DNA of 64,000 nucleotides from Diprion similis (lineage: Eukaryota > Arthropoda > Insecta > Hymenoptera > Diprionidae), in NCBI RefSeq assembly GCF_021155765.1, contig NC_060110.1, positions 11,841,501 to 11,905,500 of the forward strand. Direction: 5' to 3'. Position numbers and translations under genes: made by a program. Under the pieces are notes generated by a model. It had not been told where the DNA came from. It saw nothing but the letters and a program-made list of their open reading frames with translations, and searched no databases. Numbering within the stretch: the stretch's first letter is position 1; every line of letters starts with the position of its first letter. Below, in pieces: positions 39,594-61,015 of the stretch.

Positions 39594-42500
39594 TTAGGCG
39601 ACTAATGGGCCCCAGAAATGCTTGCTGGGTTTCGTATGGTCTTCCGTGAGAAAGAAGTCTCTTCCAAGTCTCACAAACTCTTTGCGACTAAGCTTTCCAT
39701 CTTCATTGGTGTCGATGTAGCTGAAACTTACTGCAGCGTCCTGGTAATATTTGGGAAAAAACCTCAATTAGCTTAATGATATTATTATATATTATTTTAC
39801 AGCAAACATATGCAGGGAAGCCGTTTGGCACCTAATCGAATGAACTATTGCTTTTTTCGAAAGATGCAACTCTAGTGGAAAACACACATAATATTACGTG
39901 TAAGGCATGCACATAGACTGTACAGTTTGTCCTCTAACTTGTCGTTCTACAAACTCAAGCCCAACCGGTTCGAATTGTTATCAACAGTTACGAAATACTT
40001 GACATAGAATACTGCTTACTTCACTGGTGAGTCCCAAACATTGGAAAAAGAGTTTGAACTCTTCAACCGAGATTTCTCCACTTTTGTCCTTGTCCACAGC
40101 CTGGAAAATAATACATCAGTGCTTAATCGATTGGACATATTTTTATCCAACTACAGTACGAAAAATCCTCCGAGCAGTATAGCGCAGCTATTTCTCATAA
40201 ATTTATGCGCGCGTGATGTTATTGTGGCTGATCCAGGATGGACTTACCTTGAATAGATAAGGCAGGAAATTGTGACATTTGCATTTGAGGGACTTATCAT
40301 TGAGCACATGATGCATTTCGTCCAAATACTTTTCAACGCCAACGAGATTGTAAGGGCTTATTTCCCCCCACTGTTCCTCCCACATTTCCTGTAAAAACAA
40401 AATTTGTTTATGCTTAATTATTGAGATTCGGTATTTGAAAACAAACAGGAAGTCCAAAAAAGGTTCACAAACAATAATGTTGTGTTCAAAAAATAATATC
40501 AATATCCGCAAAATAAGCAATAAGCTTCGTCAAGGGCAAACCTTCTCTAACGTCACAAAGGTTAATGTATACCTAGATCTTATTTGAATAATCACCGGAA
40601 CAACCGTGAAGAAGTTTTTTTCATCATATTTTCAGCAAATCAATATAGATTTTGAATTTTGTTTACCTTGTTTGTAAAATAATATTTAAGTACGTGGTAA
40701 GGGATTAGGTGTTGGGGTCTCAATCAGAATTTTTTCGTTGTAATCAACACCTCAGGTCTTGGACTAATGCCAAGGCTTTTCTAGAAGGTACAAGGAAGGT
40801 ACGGGCTTATAAATTATTCTACGAAGGCCGTACTTTGTTCCCGCATAGACTGCGTGACTGACCACTTTAATTTAGAATTGTTGGGATTACGAACTCGAAC
40901 CTATTATGCTATTTCAAATCTAAGCAGTGAACATTTGAAATGCAAAAAAATGAAATTGATGTAATAGATTGATGTAGAAATATAGAATTAAATTAATGTG
41001 AATACAAATATTTTGGTAAATCCGGACACGGAAAAACTTTTCATAACAAGAATTTCCATACTGACTGGCAACTTGTGGATATCTCGTAGATTTTGGCGAT
41101 ATTTCTTAGTAAAAGTAGGAAATGTCAATATTTCTACTGTGATAAGTGTTATAAAAATACTAGTTTTTCCTATTCTTACTAACAATAAGAAATATCTTCA
41201 AAAGGTACGAGTAGGGGAATTAATGTTACGAGAAGTTTGTTCATGGCCAAACGACATATACACGCGCAGGAGTTTACTTTTGAAACAGTTGAGTGTACCT
41301 TGGCTATGATCCAGGAGTAAAATTTGAAATGCAATTTCGAAATCTAGATAAATAGAATTATGTCTACTTACACCGAGGACTTTCTGGAATTCTTTTTTGG
41401 CGTCTGGTCCGAGATGTCCCAGGTCAGCAAATCTTTCGCCCAGAAGCATGAAATCATCGTAGCTAATCACCCCGTCCTTATTAACGTCAAGGTGACTGTG
41501 AAGCGTTCGCATTTTTCGTCTCCAGAAAGCAGATTCACCCTGAAAACACAATTTCGCGAGTTATTGAGGTCGAAGATAAATTTCAAAGTGCATCTATTAA
41601 CTTTATTTCGTTTTATTTGCCAATGCTGCGGTTTGAATTATTCACATGATTGCAGATTTCAGATGCTAGAATTTATGTAGGTGAAGGCCACTCAGTGCTC
41701 ATACACATTATAGGTAGATTCAAAACATACGAGTACTCATGGCCTTATAAAGCCGATAAACTGTCAACCGTTGTTGATAACCTCGTTCAGACCACATTGG
41801 ACATTATAGCAAATGATTTAACAACTTTTGCCAAAGATCACTCCAGGCGAGTAATTTCAGATAACGGTATAGAATAATTAGATAGAGTAATCAAAGCGCA
41901 TTATATTGTGCCTCGGCATAACACCACGCACGTAAATGTATTAAACAAACATCAGTACTGCAACTAGTCCTAAAACTCACTCGCAATTATCTTGGTGTCT
42001 GATCGTGAAAAATGAGTTCTTTTCTCAATTAACGAACTCAACAGATACCTGAAATTGAAAAATTGCTAATTTTGAAACCTCCCGAAGCCGGATGCTGTTT
42101 ATAAAAAAAATGGTGATTAATTTTAGAGATTTTCAAATCGACCAAACTGCGTCCCTCGTAATTCCTGATTCGATTCAATGACTACATGTATAGGTAAGGA
42201 GTTGGTGCCCGTTTTTTTATCGCCGATGTAGTGTCTTTATAAAATTTTGATTATGGCTATCACAAAATGTAACTAACGCGTCATTCAATTAAATTAAATA
42301 AATGACTCTGCTACTGCACTCTCTACGCAACAGGCCCAAAATTTAATTTATAAGATAACGTCTACAGGATGTAAAGCAATAAACTTGCGACTTTTTAATC
42401 GCATGACACGAGTACTACCATCGTATCCATGATATTTGAGTCAACTGAGTTATCTGACTCGTAAGAAGATTTTTACGTAAAATATTCAACATAACAAAAT

Positions 42501-50593: not shown

Positions 50594-53186
50594 ATGAAAT
50601 GCGTAGTGCCGGGTGCTAACGTCAAAGGTATATTTACATCCGAATTTTTCGTTAAGGTTATGTGAACACTTACACTCAAGAAATGTTCAATTTTGTAATA
50701 TATATCGTTTTACAATAATCTACTTGTTACGCATTCACGTCTCCAGACTCTATCCTACTTTCAACTATTTATTACCCTTACTTGACTCTTCAAGAATACC
50801 TGTACATAATACGTACTGGCTACTGACATTAGAAACTGATTTTGTTTGGAAAGTAATTGAAGATTGTTCGAAATTATTTTTTGCAAACCATGATTCTTCA
50901 TAGTTTTAGCAAAAGCCATTCATTCGTTGGCCAAAATTGGGGATGAGATGTACATCAAACCGCAAGATACAGGAATTTCATTCCAAACTGTAAACATGGC
51001 TAGATCAGCGTACGCTAGTTTCACATTCTCAGAAAGTTACTTTTCGTATTATAGTTATGGTAATTTGGAGGAAGATGATGCTCTGAGGTGTCAAGTTACC
51101 ATGCGCGTGAGTTATTCAATAACTTAATATTGATTTTAGATAATCTGGCGTCATATTTTTTCTACCTAAATCAAACAGACACTTGTTATTATTTTCGCCA
51201 ATGATGTCATTTTCTAGGTAGATCCCTTCAGCCCCTTATTAAAAAACAAGCTGTAGTTTAATAAGTGGTATATCTTGCGATGAAAGAATAAAAAGCTACT
51301 GTGACAAAATTAGGTTTTGAGCAAATTCCTATGTAATTACTATTGTTGTAGAACATCATCCATAAAAATATTCTTAAATATGTTAATTATATATAATTCT
51401 TACAATGTTCTTTATTAATCAGGACATACCAGTCTTCTGACAATATATATACACTTGTCTCATTTTTTTTTGCTCCAATGATCTAAACACACTGAATGAT
51501 TGAATATACCACTGCAATGTATTATTTGTTAATAATAAATCATATGCAGTCTGCAATGGCTGTTTTTAAAGCACCAGGTACTTTGGACCGGCAAGTGGAA
51601 ACCTGCCAAATAAATTTGGAAGCGAATAGCTGTAAACTTGTTTTTGTATTGAAGTATAAAAATGGCATCACAAAAACACATTTTCTACCAATTATTGATT
51701 GCCAAATTTTACAGGTAAATTGAATCACCTGTTATAAATTCATTCACACTCGTTTATTCACTTTTCATAACTCCAAGTTTACCTAGGATCATAATAAAAC
51801 CAGTTACAGTTTGAAAATTGGTAAAGTTTGTTCCGCCAGCTCAATGAGGACACAAAAATGCAGTTTTTATAAGTTCAAATTTTTTCAGGCAGCCTTTTCC
51901 TCTAAATCATCTCCCAATCAACTAACTGCACAGTACAAAGTTCTATCAGATGCAATGCAAAACTTCCAACAGCTAGGTCTAATTGAAATAACTTTGGAAG
52001 TAACGCCACAGAAAGTATTGCTCAGAAACTATGTTGACGATACTTCAGGTAAACAATTCGCTTACTTCATTTCAGAAGAAGTATCACTTGTTACTTACTC
52101 GCAACTACTTAATTTTTTTTTCTTGTGGCGACTAATAAACCACTGCATGTTCTTACTATCATTAAATTAATTACAAACTACTGCTGCAGATTTGTCCAAA
52201 GTTACCAGAACACAGTTAGCACTTGGAGTTGGAGAATTTGAGGAACACAAAATTGGAAAAGATACTGCTATAACTTTTTGTGTAAAAGAATTTAAAGCTC
52301 TTCTAAGTTTTGCGGAAGCAGTGTCCTTGCCAGTTAGCATACACTTTGAAGCAGCAGGAAAGTAAGAAGTGAAAATGTATTATGTTAATGATTACTGTCC
52401 CAAGTTACAAAAAATAATGTCAGTACAGAGAATTGTATAAAGATTTTATGATGATATACCGCGAAAATATCAGTTTTAGATACCGCCTACACGTTATTTT
52501 ATTTTTATTCCAGACCAGTGATATTTGTAATGAAAAGTTTGACATTTGAATCAAGTATAGTTTTGTCTACATTAAACCCTGAAGGAGATACTCGATCAGA
52601 AGCTTCGACATTTCGTAGTCGAGAACAAACAATGCTTAAAAATGCAGCTGCCAGGAAACGAATACCGAAAAAAACTAATGCATCTGCTAGTCGCAAGCCA
52701 AGAAATCAACCAAAAAATGTCAAAGCTAGATACAATACGTCTGCTATTTCACCTATGGAAGTTACAAATATGAAAGTACACAAAAACTATGAGTCACACC
52801 AGGAAGATTTAATGAACACTGACTCAAATGAGGATTGTTTACTTTCAACTGTCGGCATAAAATCAGTCAGTTCGAATATAGCTTATGAAACAAACGTTCG
52901 TCTAAGTACAGAAAATCGCAGTCGAATATCAACTGATTCAATATCAGTTCCGAGTTCGAAAAACACTGCCAAATCAATTTTTTCCACTATAATAAATGAT
53001 GCAGCAAGGTCGGAAACTAACTCTACAGAAATTGTCAAAGAAGATCTTGTTCCCAATTCACCACCAAAACCAGCTAGTAAAAAAGCGAAGACCATTTTCA
53101 AGAAATGTTTTCAAACAACATTTGATCCAAGAATGCTTCCAGGACATGATGTTGTTTTAGCTGAGGATACTGACGACAGTGATTGA
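50594..53186 (+). CDS. RAD9A: RAD9, 9-1-1 checkpoint clamp subunit, 468 aa
   Basis: Six coding exons: 50,594-50,627; 50,904-51,106; 51,550-51,714; 51,889-52,048; 52,190-52,361; 52,514-53,186. The acceptor of exon 2 at CTTCATAG is chosen over TTTTAG six bases later because it restores VLAK, matching VLGK of the human protein. Residues 1 to about 270 form the PCNA-like part (MKCVV start, then DEMYIKP, ARSAYA, ITFCVKEFKALLSFAEA and SIHFEAAGKP). The remaining 200 residues are a Ser/Lys-rich tail with basic clusters (KKAK). The tail closes in VLAEDTDDSD, the position of the TopBP1-binding phosphosite in human RAD9, with Thr in place of Ser. In the family RAD9 pairs with RAD1 and HUS1 and activates ATR signalling at damaged DNA. 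Confidence 0.95.
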
Positions 53187-53871
53187 TATTACTGACATTT
53201 ATCCTTGTACCTTGCAAATAAATGAAAGATTTGTTACTATATATCACAAAATCGGTTGTTACTGCTGGTATGTTTATAATAGGAAAGCAAATTATTATAT
53301 ATAAATAGTTAATATTTTATGATCACTTTTTCAGATGACCATAGGGTACTATAGGCCAAGTAATCGCAATGAGCATATGTCTTCTAAAAATATCAATATT
53401 CAACTATTGTCCTAGAAGTTTTGGGAAAATCTAATTGAGAACAACAAATTCATACGGTTTTCCAACAGTAAACTTTCTTAATTTTTTGGTGGCTTCAACG
53501 TTATAAGTGTGTACATTAAATCAATACATTCGTTTGAGATTCAAAATAATTGTTGAAAATATCAAGAATATATTATAATTGGTTAATTGAATTTGTAGCT
53601 ACAAAATATTTGGTGCCAAATAAATCTAATATTTAAACAAATATTCTTCAACGATATTAACTTGGATTTTCACCAGCACAAAACACAACACATTTCAAAA
53701 ACAACAAAAACTCTGTACAGAAACAATATCATTTATATTGCAAAATCAACGTTTGACTATATTTATGGGTATTCATGAAAATGGAATTACCAGGCACATA
53801 CTTTTCAACCAGCAGAAGGAATTCCGCACTCCGATTACCATATCCTTCAGGACATTTTGATATCACAAACA
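53187..53871. other. Convergent 3' spacer between RAD9 and the HhH gene
   Basis: AT-rich, with no open frame of note. AATAAA at 53,217-53,222, 31 bp after the RAD9 stop, is a good polyadenylation signal for RAD9. No canonical hexamer is obvious for the minus-strand gene. Confidence 0.6.
53217..53222 (+). terminator. Candidate polyadenylation signal of RAD9
   Basis: AATAAA 31 bp downstream of the RAD9 stop codon. Confidence 0.6.
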
Positions 53872-55001
53872 TCAATCAAGAATAATGTTGTTAGCCTGAA
53901 AGAAATTTGATCAATTGATTACGCTGATTATTTGGGTGACTCAAACATGAAGAAACTTTGAACTACATACCGAAAGAAATTGTTTAAAGACTTTTGGAGA
54001 CCATCCAGGCATGTTCTCTAGATCCCTAATGGTTTCCAATTTCCCATTTAGTTTCCTATAAATGATACATTTACTTTTCTCTAATGCTTGAGCTTTTATA
54101 CTTGTGCATTCAAAGACTACTGTGAATTATACCTGTATTGATCCAGCATCATTGCTGTTTTAGGTCCAATACGGGCAAGTGACTCCAATTCTTTTGGCGA
54201 ACCCTGGTTAAGCAATTTCAAAATGTCACTGTTATGAGTACTTTGAACTTCTGTGAGTGAACTATTCATAACCTGATTCTCTTCGCTGACTGTTGTTAAG
54301 GGTGTTTCCGTTTCCACATCGGTATCTTCAGTTTTACTTTGGTAATTGGCTTTACTTGTATTACCAGCTAGCTTTGACTTATTCTGACGAAGCTTTCTAT
54401 CAGATTTTTTTTCACCAATATTACTGGTCAACTTGTGTTTTGGAAGATTTTTTAGTTTATATTTTCTGTGGCTTAGCTTGTTAGGCACCTCATCTGCAGA
54501 TTCATCGGAGTCTTTGTTGTTCGAAAAATTTATTTTTCGTTTTGCACTAAATATTATAGACTTTCGGCGACGTTGAATTCGCTTCGCTTGCTCGTGATTT
54601 TTGGTATCATTTTCTGTTTCTGAATTTTCATAATGTGTTGCTTCATTTACATCAGATGTATTGTGATTACCAGATGAATGAGACTTGTTCGTATTCAATT
54701 TTTTATCAGCGGTTTTTAAGACTTTTCTCACAGTAGATTGAATTGTTTTCTGCAATCTTTCGTTCGACATATCAGATTCCTCATCTCGGGCATCCAGTGA
54801 ATCCAATTTTCTTTTGGTGCCAAATAGAGTTTTTTTCCATTGATTGTCAATTCGCTGAGTTTCTTCATCAGTTTTACCGGCACTATCGGTTTCAAAATTA
54901 CTATTTAATAGTATTTTCCCTTCATTTGCAGACGTACCATTATCACGAGAAAAATCAGTTCCAGCCAGATTTGACTCTTTCTTGTGAATTTCAGGTTCCA
55001 T
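53872..55001 (-). CDS. Motorless HhH-domain paralogue of the kinesin C-terminus, 325 aa
   Basis: Three exons on the minus strand: 54,133-55,001; 53,971-54,055 (85 nt); 53,872-53,895 (24 nt). The last two have the same lengths and phases as the last two exons of the upstream kinesin. The products also match: 30 of 66 residues identical over the HhH helices and tail, including DLEN, QYR and ANN before the stop. About 260 Lys/Ser/Asn/Glu-rich, low-complexity residues precede the HhH (residues 260-325). There is no motor domain. The start ATG at 54,999-55,001 has A at -3 and G at +4. An in-frame TGA lies upstream, and the only nearby acceptor would need an incoming phase that kinesin exon 6 cannot supply, so a separate gene fits best. 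An alternative 3' module of the kinesin is not excluded. By family, HhH motifs bind DNA without sequence specificity. Confidence 0.65.
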
Positions 55002-55951
55002 TCTCACAATAATATAAATTGATTGTTTATAATTATGATAATTTATTCAATATGATATAGTATTAATACTGATATTAACTATCATTATTGGTATATCTAT
55101 GTAAATAATATAATTTTCATTCAAATTCCGCAAACACGTTTCACAAGTTATTACAGGTAAGCATTTAACTTCCAATGAAGAAATACTGTGTTTACAAGTT
55201 TGAATATCAGACACTACTGAGTCTAAAGCTAGAATTAATCCCAATAACAGAGTGGTTCTCAATATTCCAGCTAGGCAGCTACACTTACTATTTATTGTTT
55301 ATCTTATTATGAGAACCATGAATTCCTAGAACTATGACATGAGATATTTTTGATGAAAATATACGGGATCAAGCGCACGTAAACACTATGGTACTATTTA
55401 TTTCTTCTATTGACCAGCTCTAAATTCTACAGTTGCGTGTACGAGTTCAAGTTCAAATCTTGCGCAACCGGCCTGAAAATTAAAATTTTAAAAAGTTCCT
55501 TCATTCAGTTTCAGTCATCATTATCGTGTCTCTTATTTATAACAAAGGAATATGTTAATATCCTGCAAAACGGATTAAAAAGTGAGAAATTATTTCTTTA
55601 ACAATTAGTTGAAAGTTATTCCCAGTGTTCCCAGTAAGACCAGTTAAAAGTCAGTGGTGATAAATTCAAATTTTCCGACTTTATGAGTTATATAGCATGA
55701 TTTTAAGAATAATTGTTGAAACATCTTACTGAAACAATAAATCGAAAGTTTGTGAATACTTTGTTTCAAGTGACTACGATTTTTTATCGCAGAATCGAGC
55801 AAAAAAGAACTTATGAAATAAATATAAAAACGTGGTAGTTAAAATTCGCAAGTAAGTAATTAAATATATTATATATTTTGTTGATATTGCGCACATGTAG
55901 ATACAAAATCGTAAAAAAAATACCACTTTTGGTCTGCAAGCATATGAAATA
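55002..55951. other. Spacer between kinesin gene and its HhH paralogue
   Basis: 950 bp, AT-rich. It must hold the kinesin 3' untranslated region and, if the paralogue is independent, its promoter; a TATAAA-like word lies about 30 bp upstream of the paralogue ATG. TTTATT at 55,398-55,403 reads AATAAA on the minus strand but is 550 nt from the kinesin stop. No further gene seen. Confidence 0.5.
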
Positions 55952-58900
55952 CTATTCCAGATACACGTTGTTTGCCTGAAACAATTAAGGCAAATAATTA
56001 ATACATGTTATACACATACAATAGAATTACTCAAATAACATACATATCGCAGAACTATAGGAACATATTTCTTGGTGTTGTGCTACTGAGGATGCTCAGA
56101 CATAGGACCAGTAACTCCATACATTAAAAAAATACATCTCAACGTTTTGCACACAACCAGAAACACACCCAGTATACGGTTGAAAAAGGATGTCTAAACG
56201 ACTTTGATTATGGAAACTTTGGTCCTGAGTTACCTTCAGAATCGAAGCATGAGTTTATTGGTTTTCAGTATTACAACTTACCGCAAAAAATCTGTCACAA
56301 ACTTTTTTACTCCAAGCGGGGATGTTCTCTAAATCTTTTAAAGATCTGAAGTTTCCATGTATCAATCTGGAATGATGCAATTACTTATGGTTACATTGGT
56401 ATAGCATAATTTACCAAGTGTGCTTTGAACTTGTACATTTTTTATCACTATGTTTATGACTATCCAAAGCTGAGTAACATAGATGATCAGGATTTTAGAT
56501 AACTCACTTTTGGAGATAGAAGTTTTGAAAATTGCATTTTCAGTCACAAATGCGCTTCAAATAATTAAATCGAAATTGCTATTACCTGTATTGATATATT
56601 GTTATCGCTGTTTTCCATCCAATTAGTGGCAAGGCTGTTAGTTGTTCTGCAGTACCGGAGTTTAATATTCTTAAAATGTTGTTACTATGTGCCATTCTTT
56701 TGCGTTTCAACTCTTTTGTTTTATTTTGAGTGTTGTCAGAATGGTCATTGTCTGAACGTTCATGATTCGATCTCTGTGAACCTGGATCTTGCTTCAACAT
56801 CGATTGTAAACAGTTCTCAGTAAATTTCATCATTTTTCTTGAACTGGGACAATCACTTTGTTTACGTTCTGAGATTTTACCAGCATCACGTAGTTCTGTG
56901 TTTGAGGGTCCAGAAAAATCAGTTGTTATAACAGCATTCATCCTTTTTATCAGATTTCCTCGTTGGTGATAAAGTCCAGCTTTTTCCTGATCATCACTCG
57001 TCACGGTCTGTAAAGTTGAATAATATGAAAGTTTTAGTATTCTCTATTTTCAGGAGTTCACTTTTAAAAATTTATTTTCCGAGTGATTTGATTCTTTTAC
57101 TGAAGCTTGATGAACAAATTGTGGTTGCATTGCTAAGAACGGACTCCGTAATTCAAAATCAAAAGCTGAGCATTCACGTTGCATTTCTGCAGATATCTGT
57201 AAAAAAAGAGATAAATTATTTTCTCAGACACGTACAATCTAATACGCATCGATTTCTCACCTCCATTTTCACTGGTAGGTGTAGGTTTGCATTAGTTTTA
57301 TCTTCTGGGGAGCTGCAAAAAGTAATCACTCATTGATGAATTCCTGTATTAGAAACTATGAATCTGTATATTAAAAAATTGATATTAATAATTTACTATC
57401 TGTATAACATTGGGGTAGCAACATTTACGTTATGTATTAACATTTTGCGAATGTGCTGTGACCAAAGGATACATCAATAAGCATTCGGGATATGAATAAG
57501 CATATACCTTGAACAACTATCTTTTTGAAGCGTATCATATTGATATTCCTCTGTTCTGGTCAAGTTTGAGCTTACACGAGTTTCATATTCACTTTCAGTT
57601 TGTAGTTCGCCAATAGAGACTGTTGAAGCCAATGAATGTAAAGGCTCGACAGAGATCAATCCCAGTTGTTCATTTTTTGTAAGTGTGTCTGTGGGCTTTA
57701 ATCGCGCTTCATTTTCTTTAGGATCCTCTTTCATTTGAGCTCGATAAAAATTTGTGTCAGTCTTTTTGAGAATTACAGTACAACTTTTAATCTTGTAGTT
57801 TGATGACGATTCCGACACGGGATCTGTTGCAGGATGCGAAATTAGAATATTGCTTTCAGCTGGTGATAATAGAGCTGAAAGTTGTCGAGTCGTGTCTTTC
57901 AGCTGATCAGTAAATTTGGTACACGAAGTAGTACCGTTCATTTGCAAAGTGTGTATTTCCGCAGTCTTCATATGTTCAGCAAAGTGTAGTGTCTTCATAG
58001 TATTACTGTATTGAGATGGATCAGTAGTCACGCAAGCAACCAAAGATATCAGGCTCCTGCCATCTAAGAAACCTGCAAGGGAATCAGTTTGAAAAAAAAT
58101 GCTTACACATAGAGATACGATTTGGCCCATCAACAAGGATAACCATAAGTTGAAAAATGTGTTTGGAGCCTTGGAATATGTGCGAACGAAGTTGAGCGCA
58201 ATAACAAAGTGTGGTAGTAAAATAAAATTGTTCAGGTATATGATTAATAATCACCTTTCAAAACTGACGTTAACGTACTATTATCGCGCACTGTTGAAAC
58301 AGAATCCTTAGCTGCTGGAATTGATGTAATCACTCTATTTAATATTGAAAGATTTTTATTAACATGACCCTTTTTAACAAATGTTGGATTATTCTCAGTT
58401 TCCGTTTGGTCGAAAATTTCTGATCCTTCAAGATCTACTAGATTTAATTTTGATTCCAGTAACTTTTCTCTGCAACATTATTTTTTTACAATTCACTTAT
58501 AGCATATGTTAAATATAAGTTATACAAAAAATCTGTAATTGTATAGCAAAATATGGTAAAATAGATTGATCATAGACTTTAGATTGCAGCATTACTTGCT
58601 ATCCAAAAACTCGATCTAATTGGATTTGGATTTTCACAGTTATTACAAATACCAATATGAGTAAAATTGGATATCACATGATTATTTACCCATCTGGAAT
58701 CTTAAGGTGAAGCGTCACGATTGTGTGTGATTGCGGATCATTCAATGGCAACAGTTGTTCTTGCTTCAATTCAAGAGCTGCTTTAATGAGTTGAAATCCT
58801 TCTTCTTTGGTTTCGATTTTTTGAACTTTTGGATTGATTGCTGCGTGTTTATGCATCTTAAGTGCAACCCCCATATTCAGTAGATCGTGAGGTTCTTCAT

Positions 58901-60237
58901 CAAATATTTCTATTATTGACACCGAAACTTCAATTGCAATCTGCTCAAAGACATGCTTCACGCATCGCTGTATCAAGCCAGTGGTTTTCCAACTATTCAG
59001 CTATACAAAAAATTTGTTCACAAGTCTTATATAGCCACTGTATATCACAACTCATACATATCTTAAGAAAACATGGGTATTGTTTTATGTAATGTTCTCA
59101 ACAAAATGAGAAAAGTTACAAAGGACTGAATGTAATACGACCCTCTTTTTAAGTTTTACTTTTTAATTGTAAAAATTCAATTTCAATGGTGCATGAAACC
59201 AATGCTATATAGTTGTAATCAACCCTTTGAATTCAATCTGCGTTTACAAAAATTATAATTAACGTAAATTACTAAATGATTTTCTTTTTGTTTTGTTCAA
59301 TATTTCTCTGTTCCTAATACTAATGACAAAGGCATATACTAATATATTAATATTTTCAAGTCTACCTATGTTTCAAAATAAATTTTTTTTTGGAATTATT
59401 TCAGCTTGAAAAAACTTAATTGTCAGTCGAATGTATATTTTCTAATTTTGATTAAATTAAGTTTACTGTAAAATTTCTCCATCTGCAATGTACAAATTAA
59501 ATTAAGAAGAGGTCTGGAAAAATAATCATGCTTTCAATTTTTCAAATATATGAAAAAGCCATTCACAGCTCAAACATCCAGTTACGAACATTCTCGAAAA
59601 TCTTGCATAGAAATATTCGGTTTCAAGTTTGAAGCTTATTGAGGAATAAACAACCAGTGAATTTGTATTGAAAAATTTATTCATCGTGTCAAACACTGAA
59701 TGTAAAATTGAAAAGCATATGTACCGTACTAAAATTTACGGTCAGTCTTTTTTGGTACTTGAAGATGGTTTATCTCACACTATAATCTCACAATCAGTCG
59801 GACTCTGAAATAAGTCCTCTCATACAGTAAGAAAATAAAAATATACAGTGAAAAATTGGATCAAATTAAGCTTACAATCAGTATTGAACATAAAAGAGCA
59901 ATTGAACTTTTATGTAAGTACAATAACTTATTACCAGTGGAAGCAGCGTGCCCATTGTATAAGATTTTCCACTTCCAGTTTGACCGTATGCTAAAATTGT
60001 AGAACTGTAGCCCTGGAGTGTTTTCTCAACAATGGAATATGCAGCTACCTTATAAACACGTTCCTGCGATGCATTCTCCCATTTGATATGATCAAAAGTA
60101 AATAACTCGCCATTAATTTTTAGTGCCCTAGAGTCTTCTGGCACTCTGGATATAACTGAGTTGTTACAATCTGAATTGGGTTTGACGCGTACAGTAACTT
60201 GTACATTGGAACATTTCTTCTTAGATGATGATGCCAT
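55952..60237 (-). CDS. nod: NOD/KIF22-like kinesin-10 (chromokinesin), 703 aa
   Basis: Nine exons on the minus strand: 59,935-60,237; 58,690-59,000; 58,255-58,469; 57,508-58,072; 57,261-57,312; 57,062-57,196; 56,586-57,007; 56,282-56,366; 55,952-55,975. All phases join cleanly. N-terminal motor (about residues 10-320): P-loop GQTGSGKSY at 85-93; a degenerate switch I, NDPQSH at 188-193; switch II DLEGSE at 217-222; and RDxxxLT near 266-272. A Ser/Thr/Glu-rich stalk follows, without an obvious coiled coil. HhH helices lie at about 638-696 and the tail ends ANNVYLE. A motor followed by a C-terminal HhH is the layout of Drosophila NOD and vertebrate KIF22/Kid, which bind chromosome arms and push them toward the spindle equator. 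The start MASSSKKK is chosen because the motor's first strand follows at once; the frame is open further upstream. It is divergent from EndoG. Confidence 0.88.
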
Positions 60238-61015
60238 AACTGCTGCAGCTTTCAGATGTACTTTATAATAAACTAATATTAGGAAGATAGAATTCGTTAA
60301 TGATTCGTTAACGGAAAAATGTTGCGTTTTAGACGTAAGCTCTAATACAGATAAAAATTCATTATAAGGATTCAGTGCTAATCGGTTTCTACATACGTTT
60401 TTAAAACAAACAAAAACCGTTAAAATTTTTTTAAAGCATCTGTGAATCGTATATATTTTACCTTTGAAATATATAACTCGACGGTATTGTGGAACCACCG
60501 CTACATTAGAGAGATTCCGAATCTAAACTCGCTACAAGTCTAGGCAAGTCCCGCGTAATTAGAAGGATCCGTTACGTCTTGCGTCCTTCTTATATTTGAA
60601 CTCCATCTCAAACGATGATCTAAAACAAATGACGAGTCGCAAGAATCATCGAAATTTGCAGCGCGGCGACGTTTGATGATATGATATATTTTCACGCGCT
60701 GAAGTTGAAAACTTCAGTCTACGCCGCGCCACGAATTGTCAAAATTTAGGCTGTAAAATTGCTCCTATTGGCGGCTTCCGATCTATTCTGCAATCTGATT
60801 GGCTTCGGATGGGTCAAAACGAGCGAATGGAGAGTCTCGACGTTGAGTAAGCGCAGCCGACACTGATGTAGGTATGATCAAAGGTAGCCAAATTCTTTGG
60901 CCATCAGCCAAATCGTCTGCTACGGCACGTGGTATAGCATTTTATATCAATAGTTGCATTGTTAGAACTTGATGAGAGAGATTCAAGTTGCCAATTATAG
61001 CAGAAGCTTCAGGTA
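60238..61015. promoter_or_regulatory. Shared divergent promoter region of the kinesin and EndoG genes
   Basis: 778 bp between start codons, with a CpG-bearing centre. Two ATTGG words at 60,767-60,771 and 60,798-60,802 read as CCAAT boxes toward the kinesin, 31 bp apart. TTTGAA at 60,595-60,600 resembles a CHR element. NF-Y boxes spaced by about 31-33 bp together with a CHR are typical of G2/M-expressed genes in animals, which would suit a mitotic or meiotic kinesin; here this is motif reading only. A possible donor (CAAAG|GTAAAAT near 60,460 on the minus strand) suggests a 5'-UTR intron for the kinesin. Confidence 0.45.

Follow-up and report, generated by a model that had tools for sequence, protein, structure and literature searches.

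The window analysed here, a 64,000-nucleotide stretch of the Diprion similis genome (NC_060110.1, positions 11,841,501 to 11,905,500), contains two minus-strand gene models, kinesin A and gene B, which lie between a plus-strand RAD9-like gene (stop at 53186) and a plus-strand EndoG-like gene (from ~61001); coordinates without a contig or locus label are window positions. The gene order is VPS29 - RAD9 - gene B - kinesin A - EndoG, in which the names of the neighbours are what we take them to be from their translations. A tandem satellite occupies positions 4-38153 (312 bp unit, 122.3 copies, 95% matches), and a related array of 7.7 copies is present near a kinesin gene on another contig (locus L030, 1-2392), with full-length pieces that are 81-87% identical to one window satellite unit. 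A minus-strand reading frame at 41198-41560 (DVNKDGVISYDDF) is presumably EF-hand-like. An Rfam search of 53000-61000 gave no match.

Kinesin A runs from 60237 to 55952 on the minus strand and has nine exons encoding 703 residues in one clean frame, with all introns GT-AG. Exon 1 (59935-60237) carries the start codon and the P-loop GQTGSGKS, exon 2 (58690-59000) has DPQSH at the usual kinesin SSRSH position of switch I, exon 3 (58255-58469) carries the switch II motif DLEGSE, and exon 4 (57508-58072) covers the end of the motor and the linker. These are followed by exon 5 (57261-57312), exon 6 (57062-57196), exon 7 (56586-57007; 422 nt, with the first half of a helix-hairpin-helix (HhH) domain at 56586-56677), exon 8 (56282-56366; 85 nt) and exon 9 (55952-55975; 24 nt, encoding ANNVYLE and the stop). 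The motor matches the Pfam Kinesin family at 4.8e-55 (residues 30-312). Its two best matches among solved motors are Khc (109.7 bits) and Drosophila Nod (PDB 3dc4; 109.0 bits), and in chained tblastn pieces Nod is ahead of Khc by 38.9 bits, although locus L016 leans to Nod more strongly (45.7 bits). Kinesin A is probably a NOD-like kinesin of the kinesin-10 (NOD/KIF22) type.

The canonical switch I motif is absent from kinesin A, whereas the P-loop and the switch II DxxG are kept; Nod itself keeps SSRSH, and its DLAGSE corresponds to DLEGSE in kinesin A. A genome search with the kinesin family gave at least 72 matches, which were grouped by position into ~25 loci, and SSRSH was seen in 21 of 25 stretches, representing 20 of the 24 other kinesin loci, in a six-frame pattern scan, to which a motif split by an intron would be invisible; it was not seen in L029, L030, L034 and L035. 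Kinesin A is thus unusual in switch I by its sequence, which does not imply that it is unique. Switch I has an established role in ATP hydrolysis, and because its residues are lost in kinesin A the ATPase may be weak or dead. L034 (C2:5054397-5054771) is a divergent kinesin fragment with the P-loop GQTGTGKS and no SSRSH in its 9.9-kb piece. Two other loci, L014 and L016, were considered as a second kinesin-10 and are tentatively set aside on their motifs, from which we take them to be KIF17-like and KIF21-like, respectively.

Gene B lies downstream of kinesin A on the same strand (55001-53872) and has three exons encoding 325 residues, as defined by GT-AG sites and open frames. Exon 1 (54133-55001; 869 nt) contains the ATG, an N-terminus of ~260 charged residues and the first half of an HhH domain (54133-54224). 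Exon 2 (53971-54055; 85 nt) encodes the second half, is bounded by tatag and gtatgt sites in phases 2 and 0, and has an acceptor score of 3.3; exon 3 (53872-53895; 24 nt) encodes ANNIILD and the stop, and its acceptor scores 10.6. The start codon has A at -3 and G at +4. The stop-free run of 309 codons at exon 1 has a chance probability of ~7e-10 at one given place with the local noncoding composition, a value that ignores the many possible places and is even so far from chance. A codon model trained on two genes, kinesin A (including the tail homologous to gene B) and the RAD9-like gene, scores exon 1 at 0.359 bits per codon in frame, compared with 0.009 and 0.075 in the other two frames, and every quarter of the exon scores above zero. 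Noncoding pieces, the same ones that were used in training the model, average -0.105 (sd 0.050, maximum 0.004). Exon 1 therefore looks coding over its whole length. The 685 nt that separate the stop of gene B from that of the RAD9-like gene contain no AATAAA or ATTAAA; downstream of the kinesin A stop, AATAAA occurs at ~550, 655 and 905 nt.

The three exons of gene B repeat the last three exons of kinesin A in tandem, as originally predicted: the GT-AG sites and open frames are in place, and the last 66 residues of the two proteins align without gaps with 30 of 66 identical. Extending the comparison to the last 80 residues gives a score of 177, compared with a mean of 23.4 (sd 4.6, maximum 48) in 1000 shuffles. 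The exon lengths had been described as identical; this is true of the 85- and 24-nt exons, whereas the HhH exons measure 422 and 869 nt. The phases and the stop-proximal ANN do agree as described: in each tail, one intron follows QYR in phase 2 and the next precedes ANN in phase 0. Since gene B has kept these introns, the copy was made at the DNA level and not via RNA, which argues against a retrocopy origin.

Comparison of the two HhH copies over 66 codons (NG86) gives dN 0.44, dS 1.26 and omega 0.35, the last being a paralogue comparison that averages over both branches. Bootstrap ranges are 0.72-2.50 for dS and 0.16-0.64 for omega, and omega reached 1 or more in none of 485 replicates, the remaining 15 of 500 having been dropped as saturated. 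The tail copies are judged old from this divergence, with a dS estimate short of full saturation. Frame disruption and neutral evolution in relatives had been named in advance as evidence against the original prediction; the frame of gene B is intact in this genome, and the HhH copies show constraint relative to each other.

The HhH domain of gene B appears to be the better-kept of the two. With the Pfam HHH_3 profile (cut-off 27 bits), gene B scores 33.2 bits (5.8e-8) and kinesin A, just under the cut-off, 25.2 bits. When the HhH alone was compared with solved structures, human KIF22 (PDB 2edu) was the top match for both, at 47.1 bits for gene B (1.6e-11; 1.8e-10 in a separate search of solved structures) and 32.0 bits for kinesin A (1.1e-6). 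Inspection of the alignments by eye indicates that gene B keeps the KIF22-type RIGPK and the glycine of the second hairpin, where kinesin A has IGWK and an alanine; the hairpins of kinesin A are altered (IGWKTA, PAWSKK). Neither the better-kept HhH of gene B nor the altered motor and hairpins of kinesin A figured in the original prediction. Over 63 positions, gene B and kinesin A share 29 identities, gene B and human KIF22 28, and kinesin A and KIF22 24. This comparison of three sequences weakly suggests that kinesin A and gene B are each other's nearest kin and that kinesin A is evolving somewhat faster.

The N-terminus of gene B was originally predicted to be a different, basic segment of 260 residues beginning at its own ATG. 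The ATG and the difference from the kinesin stand, and "basic" needs tempering: with 47 K+R, 43 D+E and a pI of ~9.0, the segment is highly charged and mildly basic. By the charge-hydropathy criterion, its first 255 residues and the kinesin A linker both come out as disordered. It contains an internal repeat of 58 residues, detected as an ungapped self-match, with copy 1 at residues 18-75 (54777-54950, minus strand; core LFGTKRKLD) and copy 2 at residues 109-166 (54504-54677, minus strand; core IFSAKRKIN), which share the core (L/I)F..KRK(L/I). The ungapped score of 68 was reached by none of 300 shuffles, and the gapped score of 70 by none of 500. Two loose PP1-docking matches (residues 146 and 154) adjoin copy 2 and are absent from copy 1; these patterns were sought after the sequence had been seen, 0.02 are expected per shuffle for the stricter pattern, and they amount to no more than a lead. 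Aurora, CDK, D-box and KEN patterns in gene B are near or under shuffle expectation.

Relatives of gene B and its HhH domain were sought in the rest of the genome. Gene B exon 1 matches only itself at E < 1; four weaker matches follow (E 1.45 to 5.87), among them the kinesin A HhH exon. The human KIF22 HhH finds gene B alone (E 0.01) and misses kinesin A. Kinesin A exon 7 finds itself, gene B (E 1.2) and C13:1546010-1546258 (E 0.07). The last of these (L003 / L037) resembles the linker-encoding portion of exon 7 (26%) and is interrupted by two stops, and an HhH profile run on L003 and L037 found nothing. The HHH_3 genome search gave six matches, gene B exon 2 (E 1.46) and five other loci that we take from their translations to be SRBD1/Tex, EEPD1 (two), SPT6 and TEFM; it missed gene B exon 1 and the kinesin A exons, so a split HhH can escape it. 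A profile built from kinesin A, gene B and KIF22 was run over the window and 37 loci, some overlapping kinesin A or gene B, and its best match beyond these two was an EEPD1-like locus (E 0.0016). The 37 loci include 9.9-10 kb downstream of the motor at the 24 other kinesin loci, one of them in two pieces; tails further off would be missed, and in L023 the last motor exon (C4:18682870) seemingly lies beyond the piece. Within these searches, no KIF22-type HhH other than those of kinesin A and gene B was found. Virus and prokaryote collections gave 21 and 67 pattern matches for relatives of gene B exon 1, none of which was confirmed; these collections carry no information on the spread of gene B among insects.

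The original prediction left two possibilities, that the downstream set encodes a separate protein or that it supplies the kinesin with an alternative C-terminus selected by splicing. Alternative splicing commonly uses duplicated terminal exons, and kinesin exons 2, 4 and 7, which end in phase 2, could join either gene B exon 2 (at 54055) or the AG before the gene B ATG in frame. Candidate acceptors were scored with a model built from 13 local introns, which gives a flattered 8.6-14.6 on those same training introns. On this scale, the AG directly before the ATG scores -2.7, and joining kinesin exons 5 or 6, which end in phase 0, to it would lead to a stop at the fourth codon. The acceptor at 55096 scores 5.8 and sits before an in-frame stop, and downstream of it no acceptor scoring 5 or more was found for joining the kinesin to gene B exon 1, which has no good acceptor. 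The gene B exon 2 acceptor, at 3.3, would have to compete with the kinesin's own, which scores 10.7 and is 2.3 kb nearer, and splicing into exon 2 would give no account of why exon 1 codes for 260 residues. Better acceptor-like sites lie upstream of the gene B frame, for example at 55472 (11.2), and could belong to a 5' untranslated exon of gene B or to a joined kinesin transcript. We regard the alternative C-terminus as unlikely; the coding exon 1, the context of the ATG and the lack of a good acceptor favour a separate motorless HhH gene, which gene B probably is.

A separate gene could also have arisen by duplication of the whole kinesin gene followed by loss of the motor, instead of duplication of the tail, and the resulting protein would be the same. 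In favour of this route, similarity between linkers that evolve fast would be expected to fade. Against it, the N-terminus of gene B has no detectable relation to the kinesin A linker: scores as high as theirs were reached by 223 of 1000 and 163 of 1000 shuffles, and homology between the two was not upheld. The absence of a motor from the downstream set, part of the original description, is borne out by Pfam, whose matches to gene B at E <= 1 are HhH families and, weakly, Sox_N, with no kinesin. Searching the genome with the kinesin profile placed no match at E <= 0.001 in gene B or between gene B and the kinesin A motor exons. This route to gene B is rather improbable. Gene B could instead be what is left of a second, decaying kinesin gene, or a young pseudogene. 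The missing motor, the one weak splice acceptor and the lack of AATAAA past its stop would agree with this, but it is very improbable given 325 stop-free codons, coding bias throughout, GT-AG sites, an HhH nearer to KIF22 than that of kinesin A, and the low omega.

We therefore favour, with some confidence, the reading that gene B is a separate protein-coding gene that arose when the 3' end of a kinesin-10 gene was duplicated in tandem at the DNA level, with its own ATG and a new N-terminus. The duplicated segment would have included, as a minimum, the three HhH exons of a NOD/KIF22-type gene together with their introns, and the copy would now start at an ATG within a long exon encoding a different, disordered and highly charged N-terminus that arose partly by internal duplication. 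The product would most likely be a nuclear chromatin-binding protein acting without motor activity, its binding of chromatin or DNA being proposed by analogy with the HhH of KIF22. Its charged repeats may be docking sites or additional DNA contacts. Competition with the kinesin for DNA, as originally suggested, is conjecture; gene B might also help the kinesin or have nothing to do with it.

Among known proteins, the closest to the gene B tail is human KIF22 (Kid, a kinesin-10): their gap-free alignment has 28 of 63 residues identical, and RIGPK is kept. KIF22 has a motor, a coiled coil and a second microtubule-binding region, as described in passages of PMC9302971, whereas gene B has no motor and has a repeated N-terminus. 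Gene B likewise differs from Nod in having no motor. ComE operon protein 1, TEFM and EEPD1 are of the same HhH family and match gene B at 26.5 bits or less in PDB comparisons, compared with 47.1 for KIF22; the SPT6- and SRBD1/Tex-like loci of this genome are also of this family and lie far from any kinesin match. Passages of a 2006 comparison (PMC1434745) report that the kinesin-10 HhH occurs in plants and animals, which may have gained it independently, and that one member has been shown to bind DNA. Searches of mainly open-access literature on HhH kinesins, NOD/KIF22 in insects and kinesin paralogues gave, among the matches listed, no description of a motorless HhH neighbour of a kinesin, which is weak evidence of absence.

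A bolder and quite improbable extension of the favoured reading is that in this lineage a kinesin-10 has given up its chromosome-binding half to a separate neighbouring gene, making a split chromokinesin. Kinesin A would keep the motor, without a canonical switch I and with an altered HhH, gene B would keep the KIF22-like DNA-binding fold, and the repeated basic motifs of gene B, near its loose PP1-docking sites, might bring partners to chromosomes, perhaps including the kinesin. Duplicating a gene and losing a domain is nothing unusual; what makes this case notable is that the two genes form a pair and that the motorless one has the better-kept DNA-binding half. If gene B is expressed, it would be a free-standing chromokinesin tail, a DNA-binding half separated by nature, and could be used to probe which NOD/KIF22 functions need a motor, all the more since a catalytic motif is missing from the kinesin next to it. 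Should the two genes prove ancient within their group, they would exemplify the subfunctionalisation of a segregation motor.
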